From assembly GCA_014873095.1 (NCBI GenBank), contig CP050848.1, positions 310,001 to 374,000 of the forward strand: DNA of 64,000 nt, given 5' to 3'. The position numbers and the translations under genes are program-made. Origin of the DNA: Planctomycetales bacterium ZRK34. GTDB lineage: Bacteria; Planctomycetota; Phycisphaerae; Phycisphaerales; Zrk34. The notes beneath the pieces are model-generated. The model was not told the DNA's origin and did not search any database. It saw only the letters and a program-made list of their open reading frames with translations. Below are positions 12,723 through 38,020 of this stretch, one piece after another (the stretch's first letter is position 1; each line of letters begins with the position of its first letter).

Positions 12723-13937
12723 TTACTTGGTGGGTAGACGGTCAAAGACCGGGGCTTTTTCGCCGTTGGCCTTTTCCTCTTCCGCCTTTTTACGCAGTTC
12801 AGCCTTGCGCTGTTCGACCGCTTTGGTGTCTATCTCGTAAGCGCTGGCCGGCAGGCTGGCGTCCTTGCCGAAGGCGAAGACACCGATCTTGTGCTTGCCG
12901 AACTGGTTGACCACGAACACCAGGTATTCCGGCTTGAAGTTCTTGGCCAGGTACGGCTGGAACACGTCGAGGGTGGTTTTGTCGATGATGATGCCGGCGG
13001 GCAGGCCCAGCGAATAGGGGAACTTGCCGGGAGCGCCGAAGGTGGCCAGCAACTGTCCGCCGGGGTTGAAGATCTGCACAACGTCCCACTGGGCGTCGGT
13101 GACGTAGACGTCGCCCTTGGGATCGATGGCGATGCCCTTGGGCCGTGCGAACGACCCGATGTTCGAACCCGGCCCGCCGATGGTGCCGACGAAAGCGCCG
13201 CTGACCGGATCGAAGATTTTCACCGTCTGCAGGAAGGTGTCGACCACGTAGAGGCGACCGTCGGGGCCGACTTCGAGATTGGTCGGATTGGTCAACTGAT
13301 CCACGCCGAGGCCCTTCTGCCCGATGGTGCGCAGATGCTGGCCCTGCTTGTTGTAGACCTCGACCTTGCCGCCGGAGGTGTCGGTGATGTACAACTCATT
13401 GCCGCGGATCGCACAGTCGATCGGAATCCAGCTTGTCGACTCACCGATTTCGCTGATCAGGCGATCGTTGGCATCGAACACGAGAATCTTGCGGACGGAG
13501 GTATCGCAGAGATACTTGGTTCCATCAGCGTCGATGGTCATGTTCACGGGATTGCGGATGCGGTCGGCCGGGCCGAGCACGCTGTAGGCCCGCGTGGCGA
13601 GGTCGACGAGGTGCACCTTGTTGAGCGAGACGTCGCAGATGTAGAGCTTTTTGTTGTAGATGGCGATGCCATAGGGACTGTCGAACGCAGTCGACGACTT
13701 GGCCTTGGCGTCTTCACCGACGACCCAGTCGGCGAATGAACTCTTGGCCTGGCTGACCCAGTGTTGACCATCGGAGAAACTGGTCAGAAACTGGATGCGC
13801 GGCGGGGCCGGCGGCTCGGGGTAGTAGATGTGCGAATCGGTTTCGGTGGTTTTGGGTTGCGACGAGCAGCCGACCACCAGCACAATCGATGCGGCGGCGA
13901 GTGCGGCCCGACGGGTGAGTGCGCCAAACGGAATCAT
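12723..13937 (-). CDS. NHL-repeat lipoprotein of the cytochrome island
   Basis: This 404-residue lipoprotein (lipobox VVGC, Cys24) is followed by about six NHL beta-propeller blades: repeats of the form NPTNLEVGPDGRLYVVDTF and ARPKGIAIDPKGDVYVTDAQ. A charged Lys/Glu-rich tail ends it. It is related to the NHL protein encoded at 17435. The ATG at 13937 has GGAGG upstream, and a strong -24/-12 promoter precedes it (13979-13994). The site of action is presumably periplasmic or outer-membrane attached. NHL propellers usually bind proteins or carbohydrates; here a structural role next to multiheme cytochromes is likely but not shown. Confidence 0.85.
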   Translation of the reverse strand: MIPFGALTRRAALAAASIVLVVGCSSQPKTTETDSHIYYPEPPAPPRIQFLTSFSDGQHWVSQAKSSFADWVVGEDAKAKSSTAFDSPYGIAIYNKKLYICDVSLNKVHLVDLATRAYSVLGPADRIRNPVNMTIDADGTKYLCDTSVRKILVFDANDRLISEIGESTSWIPIDCAIRGNELYITDTSGGKVEVYNKQGQHLRTIGQKGLGVDQLTNPTNLEVGPDGRLYVVDTFLQTVKIFDPVSGAFVGTIGGPGSNIGSFARPKGIAIDPKGDVYVTDAQWDVVQIFNPGGQLLATFGAPGKFPYSLGLPAGIIIDKTTLDVFQPYLAKNFKPEYLVFVVNQFGKHKIGVFAFGKDASLPASAYEIDTKAVEQRKAELRKKAEEEKANGEKAPVFDRLPTK

Positions 13938-13978
13938 GTTCGACCTCCATGCAACAGGCAGTGTAATAGATAACAGAA

Positions 13979-13994
13979 TGCAAAGCCTGTTCCA
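13979..13994 (-). promoter_or_regulatory. Sigma-54 promoter for the NHL lipoprotein gene
   Basis: On the minus strand the element reads TGGAACAGGCTTTGCA: the -24 GG and -12 GC are separated by exactly 10 bases, and the -12 TTTGCA matches consensus. The predicted transcription start is about 30 bases upstream of the ATG. Confidence 0.7.
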
Positions 13995-14208
13995 GATATG
14001 CAAGCAGCTCAAAAGGACCGGATCCATGCGAATGATGGCGTTTAGCATAGCACATGGGAGCAACCCTGAGGGCTCTTCGTGGCGAAGGTTGGAAAGCTTG
14101 GCTGGTGAAATTCTCAGTAGTGGGAAACAACCTGCCGATGATTGGAGTGTCGGGTGGTCTAACTTGACCGTTTTACGGGATATAGCGATGCTCGGCCGTG
14201 TTTGAGCG

Positions 14209-14225
14209 CGGCATGGGGATTGCCA
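14209..14225 (+). promoter_or_regulatory. Sigma-54 promoter for the cytochrome-porin operon
   Basis: CGGCATGGGGATTGCCA carries GGCA at -24 and TTGC at -12, with the obligatory 10-base spacing between GG and GC. It is 28 bases upstream of the cytochrome ATG, so the transcript leader would be short. Confidence 0.75.
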
Positions 14226-14252
14226 TAGTTTTCCACCCTGCTGGGAGTGGGT

Positions 14253-15395
14253 ATGCGCATTGAGTCCCAACAGCCTGAACCCTCCGCAGCCGACCGTCGC
14301 CCGAGACGCCCTCGGGCCCGGCGTTGGGTGCTGCGCTGCGTGCTGATCGGGTTGGCGCTGGCGACGATGACGCTGATACCGCCCGGCTGCGGCGATCCGC
14401 TGCAGAAGTACCGGGTGATGTCGACGTTCTTCGACGGGGTGCCGCCGCCGGAGGGCTATCGCCTGGCGAACATCCCCGACGAGTTCCGCGGCGAGGGGGC
14501 TGTGCGCCGGCCTGAAGACGGCCTCGTCCAGGCGCAGGACAAGATCAATTACCGGTATCACGCCCCGTATGTGAAGCGGCAGTGTTTTGAATGCCATGAT
14601 GAACGGTCAGGCTATCAGGCGCAGGTGGCGGGCGTCGAGAGCTGCCAGAAGTGTCATGAACCATATTTTCAGATTGCCAAGAGCGACTGGGTGCACGGGC
14701 CGGCGGCGATGTTGGAATGTCGCCTTTGCCACCAAGCCCACCGCTCACCGTACGACGGCCTGCTGACCGAGCCTCAGCCGGACATCTGCTACAAGTGCCA
14801 CGACTCGGCCTGGTTCAGTGACGACCCCTTCCACCGAACCATCAACGACCTGACCTGCTCGAACTGTCACGACCCCCACGCCGCCGGCAATCGTCTGCTG
14901 CTGGTTGATGCGCGCAGCTTCGAACGCCGCTCCAAGATCCGTCACCAGGCCGGGTCCGAACACCCGACCTGGAATCTGACCGAGTGCTCGCAGTGCCACA
15001 TGACCGACGAGTCCAACCGCCTGATCGACAACATCGACAAAGCCTGCGCCACCTGTCACGAAGACCATCTCGTTGAAACCGACCAGCCGCTGCACAAGGC
15101 CGTCACCGAACTGCAGTGCACCGTCTGTCACACCGCCCACAAGTCGCCGCGTCCGAACCTGATCCGCCCCACCGCCGAGCGTGTCTGCTTCAAGTGCCAC
15201 AAGCGCGAAGAGATTCAAACCCTGGCGCACCCCAACGTCACGCATGTCGACTGCCTGGCGTGCCACACCGGCCACCGCGAAGAGCGCCCGCACATGCTGC
15301 GCGAGGGCATCGGCGTGCCGGGCGAGCCGAGCGTTCGCCTGCCGTCGGCAGTCGATGAACTGGCCTCGAAGGTCATCCCGGAGGCGGCGCCATGA
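14253..15395 (+). CDS. Ten-haem c-type cytochrome, membrane-anchored
   Basis: This 380-residue protein has an Arg-rich N terminus, a hydrophobic segment (about residues 26-43) ending in a cysteine (IPPGC), and ten CXXCH haem sites (CFECH, CQKCH, CRLCH, CYKCH, CSNCH, CSQCH, CATCH, CTVCH, CFKCH, CLACH). The paired-CXXCH layout resembles decahaem cytochromes that dock to outer-membrane barrels. The next gene, overlapping by four bases (ATGA), encodes a beta-barrel. I therefore infer that this is the periplasm-facing cytochrome of a porin-cytochrome conduit. ATG 14253 is preferred over GTG 14247 because GGGAGTGG lies just upstream. Whether the IPPGC cysteine is lipidated is unclear, because proline at -3 is atypical. 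Confidence 0.85.
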   Translation: MRIESQQPEPSAADRRPRRPRARRWVLRCVLIGLALATMTLIPPGCGDPLQKYRVMSTFFDGVPPPEGYRLANIPDEFRGEGAVRRPEDGLVQAQDKINYRYHAPYVKRQCFECHDERSGYQAQVAGVESCQKCHEPYFQIAKSDWVHGPAAMLECRLCHQAHRSPYDGLLTEPQPDICYKCHDSAWFSDDPFHRTINDLTCSNCHDPHAAGNRLLLVDARSFERRSKIRHQAGSEHPTWNLTECSQCHMTDESNRLIDNIDKACATCHEDHLVETDQPLHKAVTELQCTVCHTAHKSPRPNLIRPTAERVCFKCHKREEIQTLAHPNVTHVDCLACHTGHREERPHMLREGIGVPGEPSVRLPSAVDELASKVIPEAAP

Positions 15396-17410
15396 TCCGA
15401 TCCGCCGGCCGCGTGGTGATCGTGATGGGCGTCGTGTCGCTGCTGCTGGCAATGGCGCAGCCTGTTGCAGCGCAGAATATCTTCCCCGAATCCGTCGAAA
15501 ACTTCCAGCTCACCGACTGGGGCGGCGAGTTCTTCGTCGACAGCTTCTACTACGCCGACAGCGAGCAACGCTCCGGCGTCAGCACCGAGCAGACTGAATT
15601 CTTCAGCCAGCAGGGCGTCGACCTCTGGTCCAAGGGCTTCATCTACCACCCCAATCTCGTGGACTGGACCGCCGGCGTCCGCGTCGGGGTCAGCTACGAC
15701 GACATCGCCATCAACAACGACACCGGCACCAACGTCGGCGAACTGCTCGGCTACAACTTAAACGCCCTGATCCTCAAGGAAAAACCCGTCACCGGACGTG
15801 TCTTCGCTTCGCTGAATCACCAGTTTCTCGGGCGTTCATTCACGCGGCCGGTGCAGCTTGATACGCGCAGCGAAGGGTTCGAGATCGTCTACAAATCGCC
15901 GATTCTCGTGTCACTGCTGTTCGAACACCGCATCAGCCAAGAGGACTCGGAATTCCGCATCGACGATGAAGACACGCTGCTGACGACGCTGCACGTAACC
16001 GATCAGCGCGATCGCGACTGGCTGACCGAGCTGACCTACGAGCACGAAGAAGTCGACGAAACGCTGCAGTTTTCCGATCCGAACACCGGCCCGCTGTTCA
16101 CGCAGGATCTCAGCGAGACGCGCGACGAAGCGGTGGTCAACAACCGCTGGCGCTTCGGCGAAGGACCGCTGAAGCATTCGATCACCGGCAGCAGCCGCCT
16201 GCTGCGCCGCGAAGGTTTTTTCAACAACGATCTGATCCTCACCAACCAGCGGCTGGACCTGGCCCACAGCGAAACGCTCACCAGCTACTACTCCGGGTCA
16301 TTCGACCTGGACCAGACCGACCAGCAGACCGAGCGCACCATCCGCGGCGAGGCCGGCGTCATCAAACGCATCTACCAGAGCCTGGTTCTCGGCGCCAGTG
16401 TGGATGTGATGGACCGCGACTTCGAAACCGGCTCCGAGCAGGCCTTTGGTGTGAACTTCGACGCCGACTACACCAAGAAGACCCCCATCGGCCAGTACAC
16501 CTCGAACCTCAGCGTCGGCCGCCGCTACGAGAAGGAGCGATCCGACACCGGCCAGCGCACCATTCTCGATGAAGCCGTCACGCTCAACGGCGTCACCCCC
16601 GTCGCCCTGAACTTCGCCCGTGTTGTGACCGGCACCGTCACCGTCACCGACACCACCAACACCATCACCTACTTCCAGGGCATCGACTACGAACTGCAGC
16701 AGATCGGCTCGTTCACCGAAATCCGCCGCCTCGTCGGCGGTACGATCGTCGACGGGCAGACCGTTTTCGTCGACTACCAGATCGACCTGTCGCGCAACGC
16801 AGACTACCACACGGACATGTTCAACTGGTCGCACCGCATCCGCTTCGACGACATCCCGCTGGCGATGTATGTCGAGTACCACCTGCGCGATGAAGTCTTC
16901 GATTCGGGCATCGATCCGATGAACCTCGAACATGATGAACGCTGGCTGGTCGGCAGTGAGGTGTACATCGACGACTTCACCATCGGCGCCGAGTACGAAC
17001 AGCGTAAGCTGCGCCTGTCGCCGCCGTGGGACGCCTACCGCGGGCGCATCAACTACATGCACATGCTCTCACCGGAATCGTCATTGAACGCCAGCGCCCA
17101 TTACGAAATGCTTCAATATGACCAGGCGCAGGAGTTCGGCCTCGAGCCCGGGCGTGATTTCCGTGAAAGCTACGGGCTCAACGCCAACTTCACCTCAAAG
17201 GTCCAGCGAAACCTGCTCGTCCGCCTCGAAGCCAGCTATACCAAGACCAGCGGGCGCAACAACGACGAGCTGATCCGCATCGGCCCCTCGGTCACGTGGT
17301 TCAAGGGGGCGATGGAGCTGACAGTAAGCGGTTATCAGGCCTTTTACCAACAGGAAGAAACCGAAGGCGATACCACGTATTTTTCGGTTAACTTCAAGCG
17401 GAAGTTCTAA
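15392..17410 (+). CDS. Outer-membrane beta-barrel protein (putative conduit porin)
   Basis: This 672-residue protein has a Sec signal (cleavage near VAAQ, residue 28) and then a sequence dominated by alternating amphipathic strands rich in Tyr/Asp/Thr. It ends in FSVNFKRKF, with the C-terminal aromatic residue typical of outer-membrane barrels. No haem site is present. Length and gene context (four-base overlap with a ten-haem cytochrome, in an operon with more cytochromes) resemble porin-cytochrome conduits such as MtrB or OmbB analogues, though no specific sequence homology can be claimed by eye. A role as the barrel sheath around a cytochrome is inference. Confidence 0.7.
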   Translation: MIRSAGRVVIVMGVVSLLLAMAQPVAAQNIFPESVENFQLTDWGGEFFVDSFYYADSEQRSGVSTEQTEFFSQQGVDLWSKGFIYHPNLVDWTAGVRVGVSYDDIAINNDTGTNVGELLGYNLNALILKEKPVTGRVFASLNHQFLGRSFTRPVQLDTRSEGFEIVYKSPILVSLLFEHRISQEDSEFRIDDEDTLLTTLHVTDQRDRDWLTELTYEHEEVDETLQFSDPNTGPLFTQDLSETRDEAVVNNRWRFGEGPLKHSITGSSRLLRREGFFNNDLILTNQRLDLAHSETLTSYYSGSFDLDQTDQQTERTIRGEAGVIKRIYQSLVLGASVDVMDRDFETGSEQAFGVNFDADYTKKTPIGQYTSNLSVGRRYEKERSDTGQRTILDEAVTLNGVTPVALNFARVVTGTVTVTDTTNTITYFQGIDYELQQIGSFTEIRRLVGGTIVDGQTVFVDYQIDLSRNADYHTDMFNWSHRIRFDDIPLAMYVEYHLRDEVFDSGIDPMNLEHDERWLVGSEVYIDDFTIGAEYEQRKLRLSPPWDAYRGRINYMHMLSPESSLNASAHYEMLQYDQAQEFGLEPGRDFRESYGLNANFTSKVQRNLLVRLEASYTKTSGRNNDELIRIGPSVTWFKGAMELTVSGYQAFYQQEETEGDTTYFSVNFKRKF

Positions 17411-17434
17411 GATAAATAAAGTACAGGTGAACTG

Positions 17435-18478
17435 ATGCGAATGCGACGGGCGGCAGGCTGGATCATCATCGGCGTCGGAATGACGCTCGGGGGCTGTGCC
17501 TCGCAACAGGCTGCCGATGAAGGTCCGCACCCGGTCTGGCCCCCGCCGCCCGCCCAGGCGCGGATCCAGCACGAGCGAAGCTTCCGCGGCGGCGAGCACC
17601 TGGTCAAACCCTCGTTCTTCGATTCGCTGGGCACCATGTTGACCGGCACGCGCCAGCAGCCGCTGGGCGAGCCGAACTCGATCGCCGTCGAGGCGGGCCG
17701 ACTGCTGGTCGTCAGCGATCAGATGTTGCAGGGCGTACACGTGTTCGACCTGGCCACGGGGCGCGCGAATTTCCTGGACCACATCGACCACACGTATTTC
17801 GTCTCACCGGTCGGCGTGGCGATCTGCGGGAAACTTCTGGCGGTCAGCGACAGCGCATTAAAGCGCGTCGACCTGATCACTCTCAAAGGCGAGCCGATCC
17901 GCCGCATCGAAAAGCCCGACGGGTTTGTCCGCCCCACCGGCCTGGCGTTTGATCCTCGCACGCAGCACCTGTACGTCGTCGACACCGGCGCCGCGGAAGT
18001 CTGCGTGTTTGACCTCGACGGCAATCTCATCCGCAAGATCGGCCAGCCCGGCGGCGACATCGGTCAGTTCAACTTCCCCACGCATGTCTTCGTCGACGAT
18101 ACGGGCCGGCTGTATGTGACCGATTCGATGAACTTCCGCGTGCAGGTTTTCGGCGCCAACGATCAATACCTCTTCGAACTCGGCCGCCACGGTGACGCCT
18201 CCGGTCACTTCGGCGTGCCCAAGGGCATTGCCGTCGATTCGCAGGGGCACATCTACGTCGTCGACTCGTATTTCTCCAACGTGCAGATTTTCGATGACCG
18301 CGGCCGCTTCCTGCTTCACTTCGGCCAGGCGGGCAAAATCAACGGGCAGTTCGACGTGCCCACCGGCCTGGCGATCGACGACGCCGACCGCATCTACGTC
18401 GGCGACAGCCAGAACCATCGCATCCAGATCTTCCAGTACCTGGGAGCCGAATCCAATGAACCGCAGACAAAACCATAG
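17435..18478 (+). CDS. Second NHL-repeat lipoprotein
   Basis: This 347-residue lipoprotein (lipobox TLGGC, Cys21) has about six NHL blades: units such as RPTGLAFDPRTQHLYVVDTG, FPTHVFVDDTGRLYVTDS and VPKGIAVDSQGHIYVVDSY. It is a paralogue of the protein encoded at 12723-13937, with the same Pro-rich segment after the lipid anchor followed by an F-rich stretch. It sits 24 bases after the barrel gene, and its end overlaps the start of the next cytochrome gene by 23 bases. Placement between barrel and cytochrome genes suggests a scaffold or contact protein of the conduit. Confidence 0.85.
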   Translation: MRMRRAAGWIIIGVGMTLGGCASQQAADEGPHPVWPPPPAQARIQHERSFRGGEHLVKPSFFDSLGTMLTGTRQQPLGEPNSIAVEAGRLLVVSDQMLQGVHVFDLATGRANFLDHIDHTYFVSPVGVAICGKLLAVSDSALKRVDLITLKGEPIRRIEKPDGFVRPTGLAFDPRTQHLYVVDTGAAEVCVFDLDGNLIRKIGQPGGDIGQFNFPTHVFVDDTGRLYVTDSMNFRVQVFGANDQYLFELGRHGDASGHFGVPKGIAVDSQGHIYVVDSYFSNVQIFDDRGRFLLHFGQAGKINGQFDVPTGLAIDDADRIYVGDSQNHRIQIFQYLGAESNEPQTKP

Positions 18479-20273
18479 TGCCTCCTCTCCCTTAAGGGAG
18501 AGGCTGGGTGAGGGTGAATCGATGACCACAGGTTCACACCGAACAACTACACACCCCTTCGGCCGCCGAACCCTCACCCCACCCCTCTCCCTGAAAGGGA
18601 GAGGGAGTCTGCTCGCCGCCGCGATCGTGCTGTCGGCCGCAACCGCCCCGCTGCTCGCCCAACAGGGCCAGGGCTCCGAGGTCGAAATGACACGCCACAA
18701 CCTGACCGCCAGCGGGCCCGGCCCCATCAAAACCACCTTCGCCGGCGAGTCGTGCATCTTCTGTCACACCCCCCATGCCGCCAACCCCGTCGCGCCCCTG
18801 TGGAACCGCGAAGACCCCGGCACCTTCTACCTCACCTACGAATCATCCACCCTCGTCGCCGACGTCGGCCAGCCCACCGGCTCCTCCCGCCTGTGCCTGA
18901 GTTGCCACGACGGCACCATCGCCCTCGGCCAGGTCTACAACTCCAAAAACATCTCAGGCGGATCGATCTACATCTCCTCGGCCGATCGTGGCTACATCGG
19001 CACCGACCTCCGCGACGACCACCCGATCTCGTTCACCTATGACTCGTCGCTGGCCGTCCGCAAAGGCGAGATGCGCGACCCGGCGACGCTGCCGTCCACG
19101 CTGCCTCTGGACCACAACCAGCAGATGCAGTGCACCACCTGTCACGATCCGCATGATGATTCGCTCGGTGATTTCCTCCGCATGAGCAATCTCGAATCGA
19201 ATCTCTGCCGCACGTGTCATCAGCTCAGCGACTACCCCCTCTCGGCCCACGCCACCTCGACCGCCCCGCTGAGCAGCGCCACCAGCGAGCAGTGGGACAA
19301 CCTGCTGGCGACCAGCGTTCGCTCCGCCGGCTGTGAAAGCTGCCACCGCCCCCATGCCGCCGGCGGCATGCAGCGACTGTTGCGACACGAAGCCGAAGAA
19401 GACAACTGCCTGAATTGTCACGACGGCGGCGTGGCGGATAAAAACCTGCTCGCCGCGTTCAACAAGATCTCCACCCACCCGGTCAACCTGTCGACCGGCC
19501 TGCACGATCCGACCGAAGACCCGCAGACCATGGCCAAACACGTCGAATGCGCCGATTGTCATGATCCGCACCGCACCGGGTCCGGTCCCGCCGCCAGCGC
19601 GCCGCTGGTTCGGCCTGCCATGTACGGCGTGTCCGGCCTCAGCTCGACGGGTGTGAAGATGGACCAGGCGGTCAACGAATTCCAGGTCTGCTACAAGTGT
19701 CACTCGGTCCGCAATTTCGCCCAGCCGGTGGTCAACCGCGTGCTCGGCGACAACAACATCTCCAACGAGTTCTCCCCGTCCAACGCGAGCTACCACCCCG
19801 TCGAAACCCAAGGCCGCAGCACCGATGTGCCGAGCCTGCTGCAGGATTACAACACCACCAGCGTGATCTACTGCACCGACTGCCACGGCTCCGATGACGC
19901 CACCGGCCCACAAGGCCCGCACGGTTCGCAGTACGACCCGCTGCTCGTGGCCAATTACGATACCCGTGACAACATCGGCGAAAGCCCGCAGGCGTTCGCC
20001 CTCTGCTACCAGTGCCACAGCCGCGCCAGCATCCTCGCCGACGAAAGCTTCAAGGGCCATCGCAAGCACATCGTCGAGTACAAGACCGCCTGCGCCACGT
20101 GTCACGACCCGCACGGCGTGCAGAGCAACTCCAACCTGATCAACTTCGATTCGCAGGTGGTCACCCCGCTGGCCGGCGTCGGCGGACCGACCTTCACCGA
20201 CACCGGCTTCCGCAGCGGCTCATGCACCCTGAGCTGTCACGGCAAGCCACACAACAACCTCGCGTATCCGTAA
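18456..20273 (+). CDS. Twelve-haem c-type cytochrome, signal peptide carrying a repeat insertion
   Basis: This 605-residue exported multiheme cytochrome has eleven CXXCH sites (CIFCH, CLSCH, CTTCH, CRTCH, CESCH, CLNCH, CADCH, CYKCH, CTDCH, CYQCH, CATCH) plus one CX3CH near the C terminus (CTLSCH). The hydrophobic signal core (SLLAAAIVLS) does not begin until about residue 50. The preceding 40 residues are encoded by a palindromic interspersed repeat (18482-18607), so the n-region is abnormally long. ATG 18456 has GGGAG upstream; ATG 18522, inside the repeat, has its own GAGGGTGAA and may be used instead. It is the last gene of the barrel operon and is followed by a REPIN. Confidence 0.85.
   Translation: MNRRQNHSASSPLRERLGEGESMTTGSHRTTTHPFGRRTLTPPLSLKGRGSLLAAAIVLSAATAPLLAQQGQGSEVEMTRHNLTASGPGPIKTTFAGESCIFCHTPHAANPVAPLWNREDPGTFYLTYESSTLVADVGQPTGSSRLCLSCHDGTIALGQVYNSKNISGGSIYISSADRGYIGTDLRDDHPISFTYDSSLAVRKGEMRDPATLPSTLPLDHNQQMQCTTCHDPHDDSLGDFLRMSNLESNLCRTCHQLSDYPLSAHATSTAPLSSATSEQWDNLLATSVRSAGCESCHRPHAAGGMQRLLRHEAEEDNCLNCHDGGVADKNLLAAFNKISTHPVNLSTGLHDPTEDPQTMAKHVECADCHDPHRTGSGPAASAPLVRPAMYGVSGLSSTGVKMDQAVNEFQVCYKCHSVRNFAQPVVNRVLGDNNISNEFSPSNASYHPVETQGRSTDVPSLLQDYNTTSVIYCTDCHGSDDATGPQGPHGSQYDPLLVANYDTRDNIGESPQAFALCYQCHSRASILADESFKGHRKHIVEYKTACATCHDPHGVQSNSNLINFDSQVVTPLAGVGGPTFTDTGFRSGSCTLSCHGKPHNNLAYP
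18482..18607 (+). repeat. Palindromic interspersed element inside a cytochrome gene
   Basis: Two hairpins (CCTCTCCC with GGGAGAGG near 18485-18503, and CCCTCTCC with a matching arm near 18583-18606) flank a spacer of about 50 bases. Their inner arms GGGTGAGGGT and ACCCTCACCC are complementary. A second copy in the same orientation and frame lies at 21450-21573 within another cytochrome gene. Its translation includes SSPLRERLGEGES and LTPPLSLKGRG. Confidence 0.85.
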
Positions 20274-26219: not shown

Positions 26220-26229
26220 GATCGACTCC

Positions 26230-28392: not shown

Positions 28393-28705
28393 CGGTTAAC
28401 CTGCCCATCGCAACAGGGTGCAAGCGACGGCCCACCTGACAGGGGCGGACTATCCCGTCGGAATACCGCATACGGCGTGCCAGTAAGAAGGCCCCTAAAC
28501 GACCTGATAAACAGGGTTTGATGATACCGCTTCTCAGGGTTGAGAATAAAGCAAAAAATTGGATTCTCACACGTGATATCGCCGGTCGCCCACCCCGATC
28601 CACCATATTGCCCTTCGGGGCACATCCAATCTTCGCATCAATAGTTGCCCCACGACCCATCCCGGACGGACCGCCGCATGGCCCCAAGCTCCGGGCTCCG
28701 GCGGC
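28393..28705. other. Intergenic region with the cytochrome operon promoter
   Basis: 313 bases without a gene separate the histidine kinase end from the cytochrome b fusion. It contains a -24/-12 promoter at 28467-28482 on the minus strand. The remaining sequence shows no other feature that I can name. Confidence 0.6.
28467..28482 (-). promoter_or_regulatory. Sigma-54 promoter of the inner-membrane cytochrome operon
   Basis: The minus strand reads TGGCACGCCGTATGCG: a perfect TGGCACG at -24, ATGC at -12 and exactly 10 bases between GG and GC. It is the best -24 match in the window. The predicted start is about 60 bases before the ATG at 28392. Confidence 0.8.
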
Positions 28706-31119: not shown

Positions 31120-32105
31120 GGCTCATCCCCTGTCGTCGGCGTTGTCACATCCACCGGTTTCGGCGGCGCTCCGTCAATGCCCAGTTGCTTCCATGCCGGC
31201 CCGATGGCCTGTGTCATCCGATAGATCGGCTGGTACTGCTCGATCCCGCAGGGCTCAAACTGCTTGGCGCCGAACTTCGCCAGCGCGATGCGCCCCGGTT
31301 CGGTTTCATGCATCTCGATCAACGCTGACCGCAACGCCTGAACTCTGGCCGCAGGCAGATCGCCGCGCACGATCAGCGCGTTGTTCGGCACCGGGTCGCC
31401 GGTGGCCAGTCGACGAATCTTGTCTTTTCCGTGCTCGGCTTCCCATGCGTTCAATCGCAAATTCTTGCAGGCGCCCGCATCGACGTTGCCTTCGATGACT
31501 TCATAAATCACATCGTCGTGCGTGCCGACCCATCGCATCTTCGGGGCGTCGGCCACCTGCAACAGGCCCTTCTCGTGCATCAGGTAGATCGGGTACAGAT
31601 CGCCCGCCGTGGTGGCCGGCACCCCCGCGATCTGCAGGCCGCGCAACTGCTGCACGGACTGAATCGGCGAGTCCGCCTTCACGAAGACCACCCCCCGATA
31701 GGTCGTCACGTCATTCGGCAGCCGGGGATTGACCAGCACCTGAACCCGCAGACGATCGTGTGCCAACACCGCCACCATCGAGCCGACGAATGCCGCGTCG
31801 ATGTGCCCCTGCGCCATCTCGCTGAGCACCCGGTCATAGGTGTTCAGCGTCATCAGTCGTATCGGCTGATCGATCGCCGACGACAGGTACTCCGCCAGCA
31901 CCTGGTACCGCTGCCGTTGCTCGAAGATGTCTCGCTCGGGCACCAGCGCCAGCTTCAGCGCCGCGGGGTCGACCTCGCCGGCCCCACTGTTCTGACCGTT
32001 GAGCAGGCGCGTGCGATCGCCCTGGGGCTGACCGGCAATCCAGAAGATCAGACCGATCGCCGTCCCCAGCGCTGCAATCACAAAGACCAGCCGGACAGAT
32101 TTCAT
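31116..32105 (-). CDS. PhnD-like periplasmic substrate-binding protein (sensor component)
   Basis: This 329-residue protein has an N-terminal signal or anchor helix (about residues 5-22) and a PhnD/SsuA/transferrin-type binding fold: LKLALVPERDIFEQ, ALVGSM-like AAFVGSMVAVL, YRGVVFVKADSPI and NNALIVRGDLP. No ABC permease or ATPase genes are nearby, and the gene is translationally coupled to two kinase-like genes. A sensory role is therefore more likely than transport; the tetrathionate sensor TtrS uses a similar fold. The start ATG at 32105 follows AGGAG; an ATG four codons earlier lies within that ribosome binding site. Confidence 0.82.
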   Translation of the reverse strand: MKSVRLVFVIAALGTAIGLIFWIAGQPQGDRTRLLNGQNSGAGEVDPAALKLALVPERDIFEQRQRYQVLAEYLSSAIDQPIRLMTLNTYDRVLSEMAQGHIDAAFVGSMVAVLAHDRLRVQVLVNPRLPNDVTTYRGVVFVKADSPIQSVQQLRGLQIAGVPATTAGDLYPIYLMHEKGLLQVADAPKMRWVGTHDDVIYEVIEGNVDAGACKNLRLNAWEAEHGKDKIRRLATGDPVPNNALIVRGDLPAARVQALRSALIEMHETEPGRIALAKFGAKQFEPCGIEQYQPIYRMTQAIGPAWKQLGIDGAPPKPVDVTTPTTGDEP

Positions 32106-32192
32106 AACACTCCTCATAGTCCAAACCGCGCCCCCGACGAGCGGAGCGCTGCGATTCACCAAACAAAATACGGGCCAGAACAATTGTGGACC

Positions 32193-32209
32193 TTGGCATC
32201 GCTTTTGCC
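32193..32209 (+). promoter_or_regulatory. Sigma-54 promoter of the YgbA-like/ahbD operon
   Basis: TTGGCATCGCTTTTGCC has GGCA at -24 and TTGC at -12, with 10 bases between GG and GC. The predicted start is near 32220, 35 bases before the ATG of the YgbA-like gene. Confidence 0.78.
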
Positions 32210-32254: not shown

Positions 32255-32650
32255 ATGACCAGCTTATCCCTCAAAGTGGACCCTGCCCAAGATCGCCCCT
32301 GGGACAACAAGCTCAACCGCGATCTCAAGACGCTGGGGATGTTTATCGAGGTGTACTGCAAGGGCCAGCACCCCGACGCCGAGAAGCGTGAAATATCAGC
32401 GCAAATGGCTACAGGACAGAAGGCTACGCCACGCCCGCTGACCCTCTGCCCCGACTGCGAAAAGCTGCTGATGCACGCTTTTGTCAAGCGGACCCACTGC
32501 CCGATGAACCCCAAGCCCCAGTGCAAGCACTGCCCCAACCACTGCTATGCCCCCAAATACCGGGCGCAGATTCGCGAAGTCATGAAGTATTCGGGCATGA
32601 AATTGCTGACCCGGGGCCGCCTGGACTACCTCGTCCATTTGCTGTTTTAA
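32255..32650 (+). CDS. YgbA-like 'nitrous oxide-stimulated promoter' family protein
   Basis: This 131-residue cysteine-rich protein carries the family pattern: LCPDCEKLLMHAFVKRTHCP, then KPQCKHCPNHCYAPKYR, and the ending REVMKYSG. The six or more conserved cysteines suggest metal or iron-sulfur binding. E. coli and Salmonella YgbA are linked to nitrosative stress and anaerobic gene control. Here the gene is 62 bases upstream of ahbD and behind a sigma-54 promoter. The biochemical role is unknown; a link to NO or to haem/iron status is plausible. Confidence 0.85.
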   Translation: MTSLSLKVDPAQDRPWDNKLNRDLKTLGMFIEVYCKGQHPDAEKREISAQMATGQKATPRPLTLCPDCEKLLMHAFVKRTHCPMNPKPQCKHCPNHCYAPKYRAQIREVMKYSGMKLLTRGRLDYLVHLLF

Positions 32651-32712: not shown

Positions 32713-33936
32713 ATGATCAGCCCCGCCGAAAACCATAGCGACGCCCAGACCTCCCGCCCCGCCGCCGATCCGCTGCGGCTGCTGTTCTGGGAAACCACCA
32801 CCGCCTGCAATCTCGCCTGCGTGCACTGCCGCCGGCTGGATGTCGCCTGCGAAATGGCCAAGCTCGACCTGGCCACCGAACAGGCCAAGTCCATGATCGC
32901 CTCGCTGCCCGAAATCGGGCGGCCGATCCTGGTCTTCTCCGGTGGCGAGCCGCTGATGCGGCCGGACCTCTTCGAGTTGGCCGAATACGCCACCTCGCTG
33001 GACCTGCCGATCGCCCTGGCGACCAACGGCACCATCATGAACGATGATGTCGCCAAGCGCATCGTCAACGTGGGCTTCCGCCGCGTGTCGATGAGCTTCG
33101 ACGGGCCGGACGCCGCGACCCACGACAAGTTCCGCGGCATCGACGGCGCCTTCCAGTCTTCGCTGGACGGCTTCAAGACGCTCCGCCGCCATGGCATGTC
33201 CATGCAGATCAACACGTCCGTGGCCCAGCACAACGTCAAGAAGCTCGACCAGATGTATCAGATGGCGCTGGACCTCGGCGCCGACGCGCTGCACATCTTC
33301 ATGCTCGTTCCGGTCGGCTGCGGTATGGGCCTCGAAGAGTCGACCATGCTTCACGGCGAAGAATATGAAGCGGCGCTGAACTGGATCTACGATCGCGCCC
33401 AGGAAGGCCGCATCCACCTCAAGGCCACCTGCGCTCCACACTACTTCCGCGTGATGCGCCAGCGGGCCAAGGCTGAAGGCAAGAAGATTCCCAACCGCAT
33501 GGACCTGTCCAAACCGCAGATGGCCGAAGGCCACCCCGGTCACCCGGGCGGACATCCCGGCGGTCATCCCGGTGGACATCCGGGCGGTCATCCCGGTGGA
33601 CATCCCGGCGGTCATGCCGACATGAGCGCGATGACCAAAGGCTGCCTCGCCGGCCAGTCGGTCTGCTTCGTGTCGCACACCGGCGAAGTGTTCCCCTGCG
33701 GGTATCTGCCGCTGAGCTCGGGCAACGTGAAGACCACCCCGCTGCCGACGATCTGGCGCGAAAGTGAGATCTTCGCCAACCTCCGTAACGTCGACAAACT
33801 CGAAGGCAAGTGCGGCGTGTGTGAATACTCACGCGTCTGCATGGGTTGCCGCGCCCGTTCATACGGATACACGCAAAACTACCTGGCTGAAGAGCCCAAC
33901 TGCACGTACACCCCCCTGCGACTGCAGACAAGCTGA
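32713..33936 (+). CDS. ahbD: Haem synthase AhbD (Fe-coproporphyrin III decarboxylase, radical SAM)
   Basis: This 407-residue radical SAM/SPASM protein has the 4Fe-4S motif ACNLACVHC (C32, C36, C39), the SAM-binding GGEP, and the AhbD-typical segments LKATCAPHYFRVMRQRA and KGCLAGQSVCFVSHTGEVFPC. C-terminal cysteines (CGVCEYSRVCMGC) can bind auxiliary clusters. The enzyme oxidatively decarboxylates two propionates of Fe-coproporphyrin III to give haem b in the siroheme-dependent pathway. An unusual Gly-His-Pro-Gly repeat of about 28 residues interrupts the protein near residues 273-302. AAGGA lies 8 bases upstream of the ATG. With the AhbAB and AhbC genes nearby, haem supply for the cytochromes is encoded in the same island. 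Confidence 0.9.
   Translation: MISPAENHSDAQTSRPAADPLRLLFWETTTACNLACVHCRRLDVACEMAKLDLATEQAKSMIASLPEIGRPILVFSGGEPLMRPDLFELAEYATSLDLPIALATNGTIMNDDVAKRIVNVGFRRVSMSFDGPDAATHDKFRGIDGAFQSSLDGFKTLRRHGMSMQINTSVAQHNVKKLDQMYQMALDLGADALHIFMLVPVGCGMGLEESTMLHGEEYEAALNWIYDRAQEGRIHLKATCAPHYFRVMRQRAKAEGKKIPNRMDLSKPQMAEGHPGHPGGHPGGHPGGHPGGHPGGHPGGHADMSAMTKGCLAGQSVCFVSHTGEVFPCGYLPLSSGNVKTTPLPTIWRESEIFANLRNVDKLEGKCGVCEYSRVCMGCRARSYGYTQNYLAEEPNCTYTPLRLQTS
33529..33618 (+). repeat. Tandem 12-bp repeat encoding GHPG units in ahbD
   Basis: About seven imperfect copies of a 12-base unit (GGCGGTCATCCC and variants) encode HPGG repeats in frame. The synonymous codon variation between copies suggests that the peptide is under selection or that the array is old. 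Confidence 0.85.
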
Positions 33937-33957
33937 GTTGAGGGACTCAATAAGCGC

Positions 33958-34320
33958 ATGGTGGTCGTCGCAATCATTCTGACGTGGCTGACGATGCTGC
34001 TGACCGCAGCCCACGTGATGCGTGGCGGCAACCTGGTGCTGGTGGGACTCTGTGTCGCGGTGATGGGGTTGTCGCTGATCCGCCGGGCGTGGGCGTGGTG
34101 GATTGTGCAGTTCGTGTTGTGCCTGGCCGCCGTCGAGTGGCTGCTGACGACCAGCGCGCTGATCCAGCAGCGGCTCGCCGACGGCCGGCCTTACACGCGC
34201 ATGGCGATCATTCTGTTGAGTGTCACGGCCGTGGCGATCGCCGCCGCCGTGTTGCGGGCCTTGAGTCGAAACCGCCAACTCAAGCGTGTTGCGATTCCCA
34301 CTGCGGAATCTCATCGGTGA
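33958..34320 (+). CDS. Small integral membrane protein of unknown function
   Basis: This 120-residue protein has about four predicted transmembrane helices (near residues 2-19, 26-41, 46-67 and 80-100) and a basic C terminus. I do not recognise a family. It begins 21 bases after ahbD, so it is probably co-transcribed. Its end overlaps the convergent AhbAB gene by about 40 bases. The context suggests a minor component of the haem or electron-transfer system, but nothing in the sequence proves it. Confidence 0.65.
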   Translation: MVVVAIILTWLTMLLTAAHVMRGGNLVLVGLCVAVMGLSLIRRAWAWWIVQFVLCLAAVEWLLTTSALIQQRLADGRPYTRMAIILLSVTAVAIAAAVLRALSRNRQLKRVAIPTAESHR

Positions 34321-35341
34321 AGTAACGCAGTCGCACCTTCTTGAACTCGCGCACGGTCCACAGGCCGCGGTAGTCTTCGATGCCGGTGGCTTCCTGCATT
34401 TTCTCCAGCGTGATCAACGCCTGATCGCGATCGCGGGCGTGAATCATCGTGTACAGGTTGTACGGCCAGTCGTCATAGCGCGGCCGCAGGTAGCAGTGAC
34501 TGACCGCGTCGAACTGCGCCAGCCGCTGACCGTATTCCTCGGCCACTTCGGGAGCGACCGACCACACGCCCATCACGTTGGCGCGCATGCCGGCTGTGCG
34601 ATGATGCAGCACCGCGGCGAAGCGGCGCATCTGCCGATGCTCGATGTAGCGCTCGGCCGCGGCGAGCAGTTCGTCGACCGTGCAGCCGGCTTCCTCGGCC
34701 CACCACGCAAACGGCTCGGGCTCGATCGGCAGATCCTGCTGCAGCACTTTGACCATGCGGCGGTCGGCGTCGCTGAGCGTGTACTGCCTGGCGATGGCGC
34801 GATCTTCTTCGTTAAAACCCGACTTTTTCGGGGTATTTTCAGCGGATTGACCGCGGGCGTCATCGCCCATGTCCAGCCGCACGCCGATCTTGAAAAGACG
34901 CAGCGTCGGCAGGGCGCGCGTCGAGATCGCGCCGCTGATTTCATGCAGCTTGTCGAGTGTGCCCTGCAGACCGAATCGTGAACCCGGCGGCACGGCCACG
35001 GTGTACCACAGGTTGAACGCGTGTTCGCGCTGGTAGTTGTGTGACACCCCCGGATGGCCGCTGATGATTTGGGCGGCTTCTTCCAGATGATCCGGCGCGA
35101 TCTTGGCGGCGACCAGCGACGATTCATACCCCAGCGCCGAGGTATCGAAGATCGCCGACATCTGGCGGATGACCTTCTTCGGACCGCGAAGCGCACGCAC
35201 CCGCGCCAGGCAGTCATGCGGGTCGATACCGACCTGCTGAGCCAGCGCGTCAAACGGCCGCGGCGTCAGCGGCACCGCCTGCTGCAACTGATCGAGTATG
35301 CGGCGATCCAGCGCGTCCAATACGTCGGTGGTGTGCGTCAT
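34280..35341 (-). CDS. ahbAB: Siroheme decarboxylase, AhbA-AhbB fusion
   Basis: This 353-residue protein is made of two homologous AsnC/Lrp-like halves, each with a winged-helix start (LDRRILDQLQQAVPL; DADRRMVKVLQQDLPI) and a regulatory-type alpha/beta domain (QREHAFNLWYTVAVP; RPRYDDWPYNLYTMIHA). AhbA and AhbB (or NirD/L/G/H) are usually separate subunits that decarboxylate siroheme to 12,18-didecarboxysiroheme, the first step of the alternative haem pathway. Here they are one chain joined by a linker near residue 165-190. It follows the NtrC-type gene by 18 bases in the AhbC-led operon. Confidence 0.9.
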   Translation of the reverse strand: MTHTTDVLDALDRRILDQLQQAVPLTPRPFDALAQQVGIDPHDCLARVRALRGPKKVIRQMSAIFDTSALGYESSLVAAKIAPDHLEEAAQIISGHPGVSHNYQREHAFNLWYTVAVPPGSRFGLQGTLDKLHEISGAISTRALPTLRLFKIGVRLDMGDDARGQSAENTPKKSGFNEEDRAIARQYTLSDADRRMVKVLQQDLPIEPEPFAWWAEEAGCTVDELLAAAERYIEHRQMRRFAAVLHHRTAGMRANVMGVWSVAPEVAEEYGQRLAQFDAVSHCYLRPRYDDWPYNLYTMIHARDRDQALITLEKMQEATGIEDYRGLWTVREFKKVRLRYFTDEIPQWESQHA

Positions 35342-35359
35342 CCGGTTACTCCGTCACCA

Positions 35360-36742
35360 TCACGAAGAGGTTTGTTCAGCCCCGTCGTCGGAACCGATGC
35401 GCTTGGGGATGTCGAGTTCTTCGAGCTTGCGGTACAGACTCGACACGCCGATGCCGAGACACGTGGCGGTGGCGGCCTTGTCGTAGTTGTGACGCTTGAG
35501 GCTCAGCAGAATGTGCTGGCGCTCAAACTGCCGCATCGCTTCCTTGAGGTCTTCGCCGACGTCGTCGCTGATCCCGCCGGTGGCGAAGGGCAGATCCTCG
35601 ACGCTGACCTGCCGGCCCTCGGCGAAAATCACCGCCCGCTCGATCACGTTCTCAAGCTCGCGGACATTACCCGGCCAGCGGTGATTCAGCAGCGCCCGCA
35701 TGGCGCCGTTGGTCACGCCGTCGACCTGTTTGTTCATCTCCCGCGTGTATTTTTCGAGGAAGTGATGCACCAGCAGCGGGATGTCTTCCTTGCGCTCGCG
35801 CAGGGAAGGCAACTCGAGCTTGACGACGTTCAGTCGATACAGCAGGTCTTCGCGGAATTCACCGTCACGGACCATGCGTTCGAGGTCTTTGTTCGAAGCG
35901 GCGATGACGCGCAGCTCGACCGGCCGCGGCTTGGTGTCGCCGACGGGCACCACGACGCGCTCTTCCAGCGCCCGCAGCAGCGAGCTCTGCACGCTCAGCG
36001 GCAGCGTCGAAATTTCATCGAGAAAAAGCGTACCGCTGTGGGCCGCTTCGAAGTAGCCGACCTTGTCACGCAGGGCGCCGGTGAAGGCGCCGCGGCGGTG
36101 GCCGAACAACTCCGACTCGATCAGCGAATCGGGTATCGCCCCGCAGTTGACCGCCACGAACGGCTGATTGCGCGTCGAACCGTTGTAGTGAATCGCCTTG
36201 GCGAACAGTTCCTTGCCGGTGCCGGACTCGCCGACGATGAGCACGCTGGACTTGACCGTCGCCAGCTTCTTGACGATGTCGAAGAGCTTGAGCATCGGCT
36301 GCGAATCGCCGACCAGGTTGTGGAAGGTCGAATCCGCGGCAAGCTGCTCGGTCATCAGCTTCTGATTCTGCGACATCTCACCGACGGTCAACGCGCGCTG
36401 CACCTTGACCAGCACATCGTCGAAGTTCACCGGCTTCAGCAGGTAGTCGAACGCGCCAAGCTGCATGGCCTCGACGGCGCTCTGGACGGTGCCGTAGGCG
36501 GTGAGCACGATGGCGGGCGTTTCGGGGGCGAGCTTCTGAAGATGGCCCAGCAGACTGAGCCCGTCGACGTTCGGCATGCGCACATCGGTCAGCACGAGAT
36601 CGACCGGCTGCTCGAGCAGGCGATCGTAGGCCGCCTGCCCGTCTTCAGCCTGAAGCACGTCGTAGCCTTCATCTTCGAGCAGCTCGGCCAGCGATTCGCG
36701 AAGCACCTGCTCATCGTCGACAACCAGAATGGATTTGCTCAT
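35360..36742 (-). CDS. NtrC-family sigma-54-dependent response regulator
   Basis: This 460-residue regulator has a receiver domain with the phosphorylatable Asp53 (VDLVLTDVRMP), an AAA+ sigma-54 interaction domain with Walker A GESGTGKE, the loop ESELFGHRRGAFTGA needed to contact sigma-54, and an R-finger region. It ends in a Fis-type helix-turn-helix (NYDKAATATCLGIGVSSLYR). All catalytic motifs are intact. Four good -24/-12 promoters lie in front of the cytochrome and haem operons around it, which makes those operons its likely targets. The gene is cotranscribed with ahbC (30-base gap) and the AhbAB gene (18-base gap). Confidence 0.93.
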   Translation of the reverse strand: MSKSILVVDDEQVLRESLAELLEDEGYDVLQAEDGQAAYDRLLEQPVDLVLTDVRMPNVDGLSLLGHLQKLAPETPAIVLTAYGTVQSAVEAMQLGAFDYLLKPVNFDDVLVKVQRALTVGEMSQNQKLMTEQLAADSTFHNLVGDSQPMLKLFDIVKKLATVKSSVLIVGESGTGKELFAKAIHYNGSTRNQPFVAVNCGAIPDSLIESELFGHRRGAFTGALRDKVGYFEAAHSGTLFLDEISTLPLSVQSSLLRALEERVVVPVGDTKPRPVELRVIAASNKDLERMVRDGEFREDLLYRLNVVKLELPSLRERKEDIPLLVHHFLEKYTREMNKQVDGVTNGAMRALLNHRWPGNVRELENVIERAVIFAEGRQVSVEDLPFATGGISDDVGEDLKEAMRQFERQHILLSLKRHNYDKAATATCLGIGVSSLYRKLEELDIPKRIGSDDGAEQTSS

Positions 36743-36772
36743 GGTCGGCTCGCTTGCACGAAGGACGTCATC

Positions 36773-38020
36773 TCACACGGTCTGTTCACTTTCGACCGTT
36801 TCGGCCAGCGCGGGCAGTTCACCCGAAATCTCTTCTTCGGTCAGGTAGCACAGCGGGTCGGCTTCCCACGGATCGCCGGTGACGACTTCGGCGCGGGCGC
36901 GGAGGCTGCCGCCGCAGATCGTCTTGAACCGGCAGCGGGCGCACTTGCCCTTGAGCAGCGGCAGGCGGTCCTTGAGCCCGGCCATGATCGGATCGCTGGT
37001 GTCCTGCCAGATCTCGGAGAATTTGCGTTCCTTGACATTCCCGAAGCTGCGATACATCGAGAACTGATCCGCGTGGACATTGCCGTAGAAGTCGATGTCG
37101 GCGATGCCGACGCCGGACGAATTGACCGCCCCGCCGTTCCAGCGAAGCATGTCCAGCACCTGTTGAGCCCGCGGGTGACCTTCCTTGAGCATCTTCATGT
37201 AGAGGTACGGGCCGTCGGCGTGGTTGTCGACCATCAGAATTTCGGTGCGCTGGCCTTTGTCGTTGATCTGCTTGGTGCGACGGATGATGGTGTCGACGGC
37301 CTTGCGGGTGCGTTCGGGGTCGAGCTGGGTCAGCTCGGCGCCGCGGCCGGCCGGGCACAGGTGGTAGAAACACGCGCGATTGATTTTCTCGGCTTCGATG
37401 AAGTCGAAAATCTCGTCGAGATCGTCGCAGGTCTGCGGGGTCAGCGTCAGGCGCAGGCCGACTTTCTGCCCGACGGCGACGCAGTTGCGGAAGCCCTGCA
37501 TGGTGCGGGCGAAGGCGCCTTGCACGCCGCGGAACTTGTCGTGAATTTCCGGGCGGGCGCTGTCGAGGCTGATGCCGACGTAGGCGAACTCGTGGTCTTT
37601 GAGCTTCTGCGCATTTTCGGGCGTGATCAGCGTGCCGTTGGTCGAGAGCACCACGTGCAACCCGCGGTCGCGGGCATAACGGGCCAGTTCGAACAGGTCC
37701 GGCCTGACCAGCGGCTCGCCACCGGAGAACAGCACCGCCGGCACCTGGAAGTCCGCCAGGTCGTCGAGCACGGCCTTGGCCTGCTCGGTGGTCAACTCGC
37801 CGGAATACTTCTTGGCTTCCGAGGCGGTGTAGCAATGGGCGCAGCGGAGATTGCACGTGCGGGTGAAGTTCCACACGACGATCGGACGGCGCTCGGCGGC
37901 CGACTTGGCGACAGCCATCTTCTGATGGGGCGGCGGATCGATCTGGGTGATCTTGCGGCCGTAACGGTGCGGCGTGCTGGGCGTCTCCAGCCCGCAGTAC
38001 AGTACGCTGATGTCAATCAT
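36773..38020 (-). CDS. ahbC: 12,18-didecarboxysiroheme deacetylase AhbC (radical SAM)
   Basis: This 415-residue radical SAM/SPASM enzyme starts with the AhbC-typical MIDISVLYCGLETP and HRYGRK segments, then CNLRCAHC (C56, C60, C63) for the 4Fe-4S cluster and FSGGEPLVRPDLF for SAM. The C-terminal CARCRFKTICGGS plus a final cysteine (DPLC) serve auxiliary clusters. It removes acetate side chains from 12,18-didecarboxysiroheme to give Fe-coproporphyrin III. GGAGG lies nine bases before the ATG at 38020. An earlier start seven codons upstream would overlap that site. Confidence 0.9.
   Translation of the reverse strand: MIDISVLYCGLETPSTPHRYGRKITQIDPPPHQKMAVAKSAAERRPIVVWNFTRTCNLRCAHCYTASEAKKYSGELTTEQAKAVLDDLADFQVPAVLFSGGEPLVRPDLFELARYARDRGLHVVLSTNGTLITPENAQKLKDHEFAYVGISLDSARPEIHDKFRGVQGAFARTMQGFRNCVAVGQKVGLRLTLTPQTCDDLDEIFDFIEAEKINRACFYHLCPAGRGAELTQLDPERTRKAVDTIIRRTKQINDKGQRTEILMVDNHADGPYLYMKMLKEGHPRAQQVLDMLRWNGGAVNSSGVGIADIDFYGNVHADQFSMYRSFGNVKERKFSEIWQDTSDPIMAGLKDRLPLLKGKCARCRFKTICGGSLRARAEVVTGDPWEADPLCYLTEEEISGELPALAETVESEQTV

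Follow-up and report, generated by a model that had tools for sequence, protein, structure and literature searches.

Among the described systems for carrying electrons across the cell envelope, the undecahaem electron transfer (Uet) complex is known from Tenderiales and Gallionella (PMC10734462). Uet-related terms also occur in PMC13264449 and PMC13386937. A Geoalkalibacter locus contains an OmcE-like cytochrome together with two NHL proteins (PMC12016550), and NHL genes are found beside cytochromes in Desulfovibrio ferrophilus (PMC9769857); the accessible text of the OmcE papers PMC12307469, PMC12133095, PMC10954620, and PMC11976967 does not contain the term NHL. In Verrucomicrobia, clusters of a porin and adjacent multihaem cytochromes include an eight-haem periplasmic protein (PMC5615132). 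Here we describe a gene island in a 64-kb stretch of Planctomycetales bacterium ZRK34 (positions 310001-374000 of the single 5.71-Mb contig; genome completeness 93.4%). This whole stretch is referred to as the window, and positions are given within it unless stated otherwise. The island occupies about 25 kb (12723-38041) and combines multihaem cytochromes and an outer-membrane barrel with haem synthesis and regulatory genes. Among titles and abstract openings we found no publication on this planctomycete gene set, a search of incomplete coverage, and the module may already be in print.

We propose that the products of the island form a Uet/OmcE-type electron conduit across the cell envelope, with an NtrC-sigma-54 switch of its own, and assign this reading a probability of roughly 0.7. 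The observations behind it are the gene content, its conservation in related genomes, an OmcE domain, promoter-like sites, and a structural model of the barrel. Gene identities are backed by open reading frames (ORFs), codon bias, and domain scans. An earlier note on this DNA, made from the letters alone, listed six multihaem cytochromes, and the motif count bears this out: they contain 10, 12, 15, 15, 12, and 11 haem sites, 75 in total when CxxCH, CxxxCH, and CxxxxCH are all counted, and their genes are the only CxxCH-bearing ORFs of at least 90 amino acids in the window. The barrel, two NHL lipoproteins (NHL_A and NHL_B), thioredoxin/TPR protein, YgbA, three-part sensor, and NtrC activator that the note had named are likewise present. 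Its assignment of the haem synthesis genes stands for AhbA and AhbB, which score over their cut-offs; AhbC and AhbD fall under their equivalog cut-offs, hence AhbC-like and AhbD-like. The gene set, considered unfamiliar at first, is so as a full set, whereas its NHL-barrel-undecahaem-tetrahaem core resembles Uet as described in the accessible text and is very widespread.

The genes form six transcription units: (i) NHL_A (minus strand); (ii) decahaem-barrel-NHL_B-12-haem (plus); (iii) a five-gene cytochrome unit (minus) in the order cytochrome b fusion, NapC fusion, 15-haem, 15-haem, thioredoxin/TPR; (iv) PhnD-HAMP-kinase (minus); (v) YgbA-AhbD (plus); and (vi) AhbC-NtrC-AhbAB (minus) (Table 1). 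Some gene starts were corrected: NHL_A probably starts at ~13937 and the 12-haem gene at ~18522, the AhbC gene extends to 38041, and the true start of the PhnD-like gene is probably downstream of 32183, with 32126 adopted.

Table 1. Genes and sigma-54-type sites of the island in window coordinates (E, E-value; pLDDT, predicted local distance difference test; PWM, position weight matrix score)
Feature	Position	Strand	Basis
NHL_A, NHL-repeat lipoprotein, own unit	12723..13937	-	Pfam NHL; lipobox Cys24; in 57/80 related loci
Decahaem cytochrome	14247..15395	+	10 CxxCH; two pentahaem-profile matches, E 2e-30 and 7e-17
Outer-membrane barrel, ~28 strands	15392..17410	+	AlphaFold2 pLDDT 91.8
NHL_B lipoprotein	17435..18478	+	Pfam NHL E 4e-30; lipobox Cys21; in 77/80 loci
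12-haem cytochrome, N-terminal OmcE nanowire domain	18522..20273	+	7tfs sequence and fold match
Thioredoxin-fold/TPR protein	20391..21407	-	TPR by Pfam; thioredoxin-like part from first reading
15-haem cytochrome a	21404..23143	-	12 CxxCH and 3 longer motifs
15-haem cytochrome b, lipoprotein, paralogue of a	23140..24654	-	13 and 2 motifs; lipobox Cys29
12-haem protein with NapC/NirT-type domain at its start	24660..26219	-	PF03264 E 5e-13, residues 43-191
11-haem cytochrome fused to cytochrome b561-type membrane domain	26230..28392	-	PF01292 E 6e-8
Histidine kinase	28706..30040	-	HisKA and HATPase_c
HAMP/HisKA protein, no ATPase-domain match	30037..31119	-	Domain scan
PhnD-like periplasmic binding protein, probable sensor input	31116..32183	-	PF12974 E 6e-48
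YgbA-like protein	32255..32650	+	PF11756 E 4e-18
AhbD-like haem synthase	32713..33936	+	TIGR04545 439.6 bits, cut-off 500
Fused AhbA-AhbB sirohaem decarboxylase	34280..35341	-	NF040708 244.9 bits (cut-off 140); NF040707 225.6 (cut-off 125)
NtrC-type sigma-54 activator	35360..36742	-	Response_reg, Sigma54_activat, HTH_8
AhbC-like radical SAM enzyme	36773..38041	-	TIGR04546 491.8 bits, cut-off 650
Sigma-54-type site, NHL_A	13979..13994	-	PWM 12.4; reached by 0.43% of random windows
Sigma-54-type site, decahaem-barrel-NHL_B-12-haem unit	14209..14224	+	PWM 10.0; reached by 1.7% of random windows
Sigma-54-type site, five-gene cytochrome unit	28467..28482	-	PWM 12.6
Sigma-54-type site, sensor unit	32162..32177	-	PWM 12.0; gene start taken as 32126; inside longest ORF
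Sigma-54-type site, YgbA-AhbD	32194..32209	+	PWM 13.0, best in window
Sigma-54-type site, AhbC-NtrC-AhbAB	38062..38077	-	PWM 11.6

The core of the island is conserved. The barrel has matches in 11 of 61 related genomes (own included) and in 5 of 392 genomes of the phylum at E 1e-30, and the 12-haem gene in 10/61 at E 1e-40 and 21/392 at E 1e-60 (own included). The earlier note proposed a search for conserved synteny, and such synteny is observed: in all nine relatives with the 12-haem gene in the locus retrieved, it is accompanied by NHL_A, a multihaem gene, the barrel, and NHL_B. Two further genomes (G004 and G418) contain only parts of the module, at contig ends. A single-sequence barrel search of wider genome contigs returned nothing, whereas a scan with the 12-haem alignment recovered at least 553 relatives. 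The best 80 of these were examined further; the sample is biased to near relatives, counts loci cut by contig ends, and contains the 12-haem gene by choice. Within it, NHL_B is found in 77 loci, the barrel in 67, NHL_A in 57, and a tetrahaem OmcE-like gene in 56; a best match to the pentahaem/decahaem profile is found in 47, and to the 15-haem profile (any haem number) in 38. The remaining genes are rarer: NtrC in 19, thioredoxin/TPR in 18, the kinase in 15, the b fusion in 9, and the NapC type in 8 (score floors: NHL_B 150, thioredoxin/TPR 45, NtrC 200, kinase 100, Ahb 200). An NHL gene directly precedes the 12-haem gene in 72/80 loci, and the barrel directly precedes that NHL gene in 49/80; many of the remaining loci are cut by contig ends or have their barrel at another place, as seen in Bacteroidota.

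By record title, the tree of 12-haem proteins contains 12 phylum-level groups, although bins may hold stray contigs. It is a quick tree with midpoint root and Shimodaira-Hasegawa-like approximate likelihood ratio test (SH-aLRT) support, in which the nearest named sequences come from Planctomycetota. The six-member clade of the window is sister to a Pseudomonadota clade (SH-aLRT 89, under the 95 mark) in which loci such as L070 and L081 have a Uet-like order of two trihaem genes, barrel, NHL, and 12-haem.

The most interesting part, which goes beyond the first reading, is the OmcE-bearing 12-haem protein as a candidate joint between conduit and nanowire. This protein (11 CxxCH and one CxxxCH) matches OmcE over the whole chain by both sequence and fold. 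Searched alone, it aligned with PDB 7tfs ('Cryo-EM of the OmcE nanowires from Geobacter sulfurreducens') at E 6.4e-23 over chain residues 10-231 of 232, and with 9yuq at E 6.9e-22; its residues 39-234 span the OmcE unit with all four haem sites, and the alignment profile reached E 8.7e-39. For its AlphaFold2 model (pLDDT 79, predicted TM-score (pTM) 0.76), 7tfs is the only Foldseek match below E 0.001 (E 2e-6, TMt 0.62). Two tandem OmcE-like tetrahaem genes lie at ~4.43 Mb on the same contig of this genome, and the product of one of them, the one that was tested, aligns with 9yuq (E 1.3e-10) and 7tfs (E 4.2e-7). About 100 bases upstream of this pair is a sigma-54-type site with a score of 14.2. 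The description of the island as self-contained therefore fails. In the related genome G051, a gene resembling the domain of the 12-haem protein adjoins the module and has a sigma-54-type site of 15.1.

In 41 homologues of the 12-haem protein, the 12 haem-motif histidines and 13 further histidines are invariant. In OmcE filaments, one interfacial haem is ligated by a histidine of the neighbouring subunit (PMC12954529, PMC12307469). Since 12 haems are matched by 13 invariant free histidines, one of the latter could be donated to the first wire subunit. His59, His85, His167, and His211 are kept in 83, 93, 100, and 100% of 59 tetrahaem relatives, in which the four haem histidines are invariant. 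We tentatively suggest that the 12-haem cytochrome may be a socket joining the outer-membrane conduit to an OmcE-type nanowire, a doubtful proposal at present. It is weakened by the near-invariance of His577 (40 of the 41 rows), His340 (39), and His328 (36), and by a fifth histidine, kept in 76% of the tetrahaem proteins and absent from the 12-haem protein; the spare histidine may serve another role. The attachment of cytochrome nanowires to the envelope is not settled in the accessible literature, and the 12-haem protein offers a concrete candidate joint. If the proposal is true, the NHL-barrel-12-haem module would serve as a common foundation for nanowires across a dozen phyla; in this planctomycete, a single sigma-54 regulator would control it along with haem synthesis. 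It is testable in apparent isolates bearing the module, such as Desulforhopalus sp. IMCC35007 (locus L044).

The earlier note proposed a structure prediction of the barrel with the ten-haem protein; predicted alone, it comes out as a large barrel (mean pLDDT 91.8, pTM 0.77) of about 28 long strands by a hand count of listed elements, with a small conserved insert near residues 388-465. Its best 50 Foldseek matches are large outer-membrane barrels including ushers, TonB-dependent receptors, LptD, and MtrB, the last (6r2q_B) at rank 8 with a TM-score (TM) of 0.36-0.37. An MtrB-sized pore is plausible from the model.

The decahaem protein repeats in tandem a pentahaem unit known from relatives. 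The ten-haem form is seen in the window, G017, G051, L025, and L026, all within one clade of six (support 100); the contig of the sixth member, L027, ends before the gene. Other planctomycete loci with a recognised gene mostly have five haems, and L087 has eight. A strict lipobox was not found in the decahaem protein of the window, and a loose one is present in 31/38 and 6/8 relatives; the protein is perhaps a lipoprotein. The loose pattern occurs in 45/51 NHL_A and 46/74 NHL_B proteins, yet also in 16/64 barrels and 11/81 12-haem proteins, and is thus weak evidence. A tight N-terminal motif considered for the periplasmic multihaem protein was dropped, as it held in only 6/48 proteins. In five Verrucomicrobiota loci (L035, L066, L067, L091, and L100), the slot before the barrel is filled by 11- to 19-haem proteins with a best match to the 15-haem profile, and no pentahaem protein is seen there. 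Locus L034 contains a 20-haem ORF of 1256 amino acids between the barrel (end 5029) and NHL_B (start 8826).

In the five-gene unit, 15-haem cytochrome b matches chain 6r2q_A (E 8e-15) of the Mtr complex entry 6r2q, although the name given for this chain is unexpected. The thioredoxin-like part of the protein encoded next to the 15-haem pair has no Pfam match, and the thioredoxin/TPR gene adjoins a 15-haem-type gene in several relatives. Elsewhere in the same genome (~4.494-4.498 Mb; L108:6093-9752), an ORF of 1219 amino acids with 25 haem sites has parts like one of the island's 15-haem cytochromes and a C-terminal sequence that is thioredoxin/TPR-like by eye.

The earlier note placed the island in one regulon, and the presence of a sigma-54-type site at each of the six units supports this. 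The NtrC protein contains the receiver, the AAA+ sigma-54 domain, and the HTH domain, and GAFTGA occurs in its sequence. The six units are preceded, in the correct orientation, by the sites that rank 1-5 and 14 among all those on both strands of the window; their scores run from 10.0 to 13.0, and 0.15 to 1.7% of random windows score as high, whereas none of 26 hand-picked control upstream windows reaches 10 (top 8.7). Sites are also found in G017 (13.3, 10.3, and 13.5) and G051 (12.8 and 13.5). Across related loci, the OmcE-like tetrahaem genes have a site of at least 11 in 17/64 cases, compared with 1.2 expected from shuffles and with 19/527 control ORFs; enrichment is weak for 12-haem genes (5/81, expected 1.9) and 15-haem genes (2/28, expected 0.2). 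Given the sites upstream of all six units, one NtrC regulon that includes haem synthesis is plausible.

The Ahb genes raise the question of whether the conduit has its own haem supply, as was claimed at first. This is doubtful: ferrochelatase (PF00762) was not found in the genome, by a search that may miss forms, so that the cell as a whole may make its haem through Ahb, and AhbAB and the module sit on separate contigs in G017 and G051, whose barrels are the most similar. A private supply was accordingly dropped, though not firmly. The absence of ferrochelatase is itself weak evidence, since the same search finds none in five of the ten module-bearing genomes (G016, G019, G020, G028, and G032), which also lack AhbB over cut-off and yet have to produce haem; it has no match in 55/61 genomes, and 50/61 have neither ferrochelatase nor AhbB over cut-off. 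For these 50 related genomes, either the origin of the haem lacks an explanation or some forms escaped the search. Probably, the Ahb genes serve the whole cell, and their place in the regulon is a local arrangement. The Phycisphaerae paper PMC11266412 contains the term 'siroheme-dependent' in its accessible text, and the route may already be noted there. The AhbC-like protein scores almost equally with the NirJ1 model TIGR04054 (497 bits, cut-off 650), and therefore AhbC and NirJ-like functions are not separable by score. The AhbD-like protein has in-frame GHPG (His-Pro-Gly) repeats between two profile-matching stretches (33529-33618), a possible metal-binding insert. In G017 (L112:2548-5220), AhbAB follows two genes that resemble cytochrome c biogenesis membrane proteins when the sequence is read by eye.

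Several points weigh against the conduit reading. None of the best 50 fold matches of the barrel is close (highest TM 0.41), and the barrel matched no family among Pfam and NCBIfam profiles, so that its pore size and partner are only inferred. The tetrahaem wire gene is outside the island and absent from the window. The genome contains three COX1 matches, which suggests oxygen respiration as well, and the conduit need not be the main route. As for the switch, the sigma-54 matrix is a consensus with author-set weights; the plain pattern is not enriched in the window (24 vs 34.9 expected) and is remarkable only in where it occurs. Among the 26 controls, one (53144, minus strand) is not a gene start, and the starts of NHL_A and PhnD were moved by hand. 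No site is seen at PhnD or YgbA of G024, the AhbC site of G017 scores only 8.4, and NHL_A, NHL_B, barrel, and periplasmic genes in the 80 loci show no enrichment. The caveats on the sigma-54 controls slightly lowered our confidence in the conduit reading.

One alternative is that the Ahb genes and the conduit are neighbours by chance, with no common regulation. Besides the separate contigs of G017 and G051, this agrees with the presence of any Ahb gene in only 2/80 fetched loci (L065 and L089). In G051, G033, G042, and G007 the Ahb genes cluster together, and in G033 and G042, which lack the module, no site between the divergent AhbC and AhbD is among the best sites listed. On the other hand, the window has sites of 11.6 at AhbC-NtrC-AhbAB and 13.0 at YgbA-AhbD, AhbC and NtrC adjoin the module in G017, and AhbB over cut-off, found in 5/61 genomes, co-occurs with the module (present in 10) in three (Fisher p 0.028, kinship uncorrected). 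We consider chance adjacency possible, though rather unlikely.

We infer the localisation of the proteins, the electron path and its outward direction, the wire, and the in vivo regulon as follows. The cytochrome b fusion and the NapC-type fusion would oxidise quinol, and the two 15-haem cytochromes would relay the electrons across the periplasm to the decahaem protein inside the barrel, which would hand them on to the 12-haem cytochrome outside. The OmcE-like end of the latter may take up OmcE-type tetrahaem subunits as an extracellular wire, and the NHL lipoproteins probably keep the outer parts in place or help to put them together. A signal sensed by the PhnD-type binding protein and the split kinase would activate the conduit together with oxygen-independent haem synthesis. 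The porin-cytochrome path from quinol to the outside proposed in the earlier note is thus plausible, backed by the conserved synteny and the large barrel model.

Another scenario is that the same conduit runs inward, from iron(II), minerals, or another cell to the quinone pool. According to the accessible text, Uet is reported from cathode-oxidising Tenderiales and iron-oxidising Gallionella (PMC10734462); the sister position of the Uet-like Pseudomonadota clade, with its support of 89, and the three COX1 matches point the same way. Against it, RuBisCO was not found in the genome, by a search that covered this carbon-fixation route only, which mildly favours export, and the likely regulon, with its two quinol-dehydrogenase-type modules and its oxygen-independent haem synthesis, would better fit anoxic export. 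We regard inward flow as unlikely. It is quite improbable that the cytochromes act as an electron store or feed a periplasmic reductase of nitrogen oxides or metals while the barrel secretes the 12-haem and OmcE-like proteins, a view that could draw on the name of the YgbA family ('nitrous oxide-stimulated promoter') and the ranking of pilus ushers above MtrB among the barrel fold matches, but which sits poorly with the position of a multihaem gene immediately ahead of the barrel in many of the 80 loci and with the scanned island proteins, none of which has a catalytic reductase as its best family.

Downstream of the island, the region 45774-53144 has low GC content (0.51-0.58) and contains a serine recombinase, an N6 DNA methylase, a DDE transposase, and two tRNA-Ser genes; it is likely a mobile element.

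Compared with known systems, the conduit of the island is closest in composition and type to Uet, with which it shares, by type, a beta-barrel (UetC) and two NHL proteins (UetH and UetI), as well as an extracellular tetrahaem cytochrome in the system, as far as the accessible description goes. The candidate counterpart of the undecahaem cytochrome UetJ, the 12-haem protein, has 11 CxxCH and one CxxxCH and is sister to Uet-like Pseudomonadota loci, the Tenderia sequence being outside this comparison. The differences from that description are that a decahaem protein stands where Uet has three trihaem proteins, and that the island adds the b and NapC fusions, the 15-haem pair, the sensor, NtrC, and the Ahb genes. 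The trihaem periplasmic cytochromes and peptidyl-prolyl isomerase (PPIase) of Uet are not among the 20 scanned proteins (12723-39644), and its extracellular tetrahaem cytochrome is absent from the window, the OmcE-like pair being encoded at 4.43 Mb. OmcE of Geobacter sulfurreducens (7tfs) is represented by the OmcE unit of the 12-haem protein, in which four free histidines align with the tetrahaem relatives; this protein differs in having eight further haems after the unit and in missing the fifth histidine. The succession of a decahaem gene and a large barrel recalls MtrCAB, MtoAB, and PioAB, with a remote fold match to 6r2q_B and a weak decahaem match to 6r2q_A (E 1e-6), but the decahaem protein differs from MtrA/DmsE in being a duplicated pentahaem unit. 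Membership in MtrAB was rejected, with 79.1 bits for the decahaem protein against the TIGR03508 cut-off of 192.2 and no family for the barrel. The Verrucomicrobia clusters are a similar porin-multihaem arrangement within the Planctomycetes-Verrucomicrobia-Chlamydiae (PVC) superphylum, but the term NHL is absent from the accessible text of PMC5615132. With the AhbABCD route the island shares fused AhbAB over cut-off and AhbC-like and AhbD-like radical SAM proteins, the latter two under cut-off, and differs in interleaving these genes with a sigma-54 activator and conduit genes.

In summary, the conduit core itself is already known in kind; new are the decahaem clade, the sigma-54 regulon with Ahb genes, and the adaptor hypothesis. 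Relative to the described systems, the island would extend Uet-like conduits far beyond Proteobacteria and, in one planctomycete, would tie conduit expression to oxygen-independent haem synthesis.

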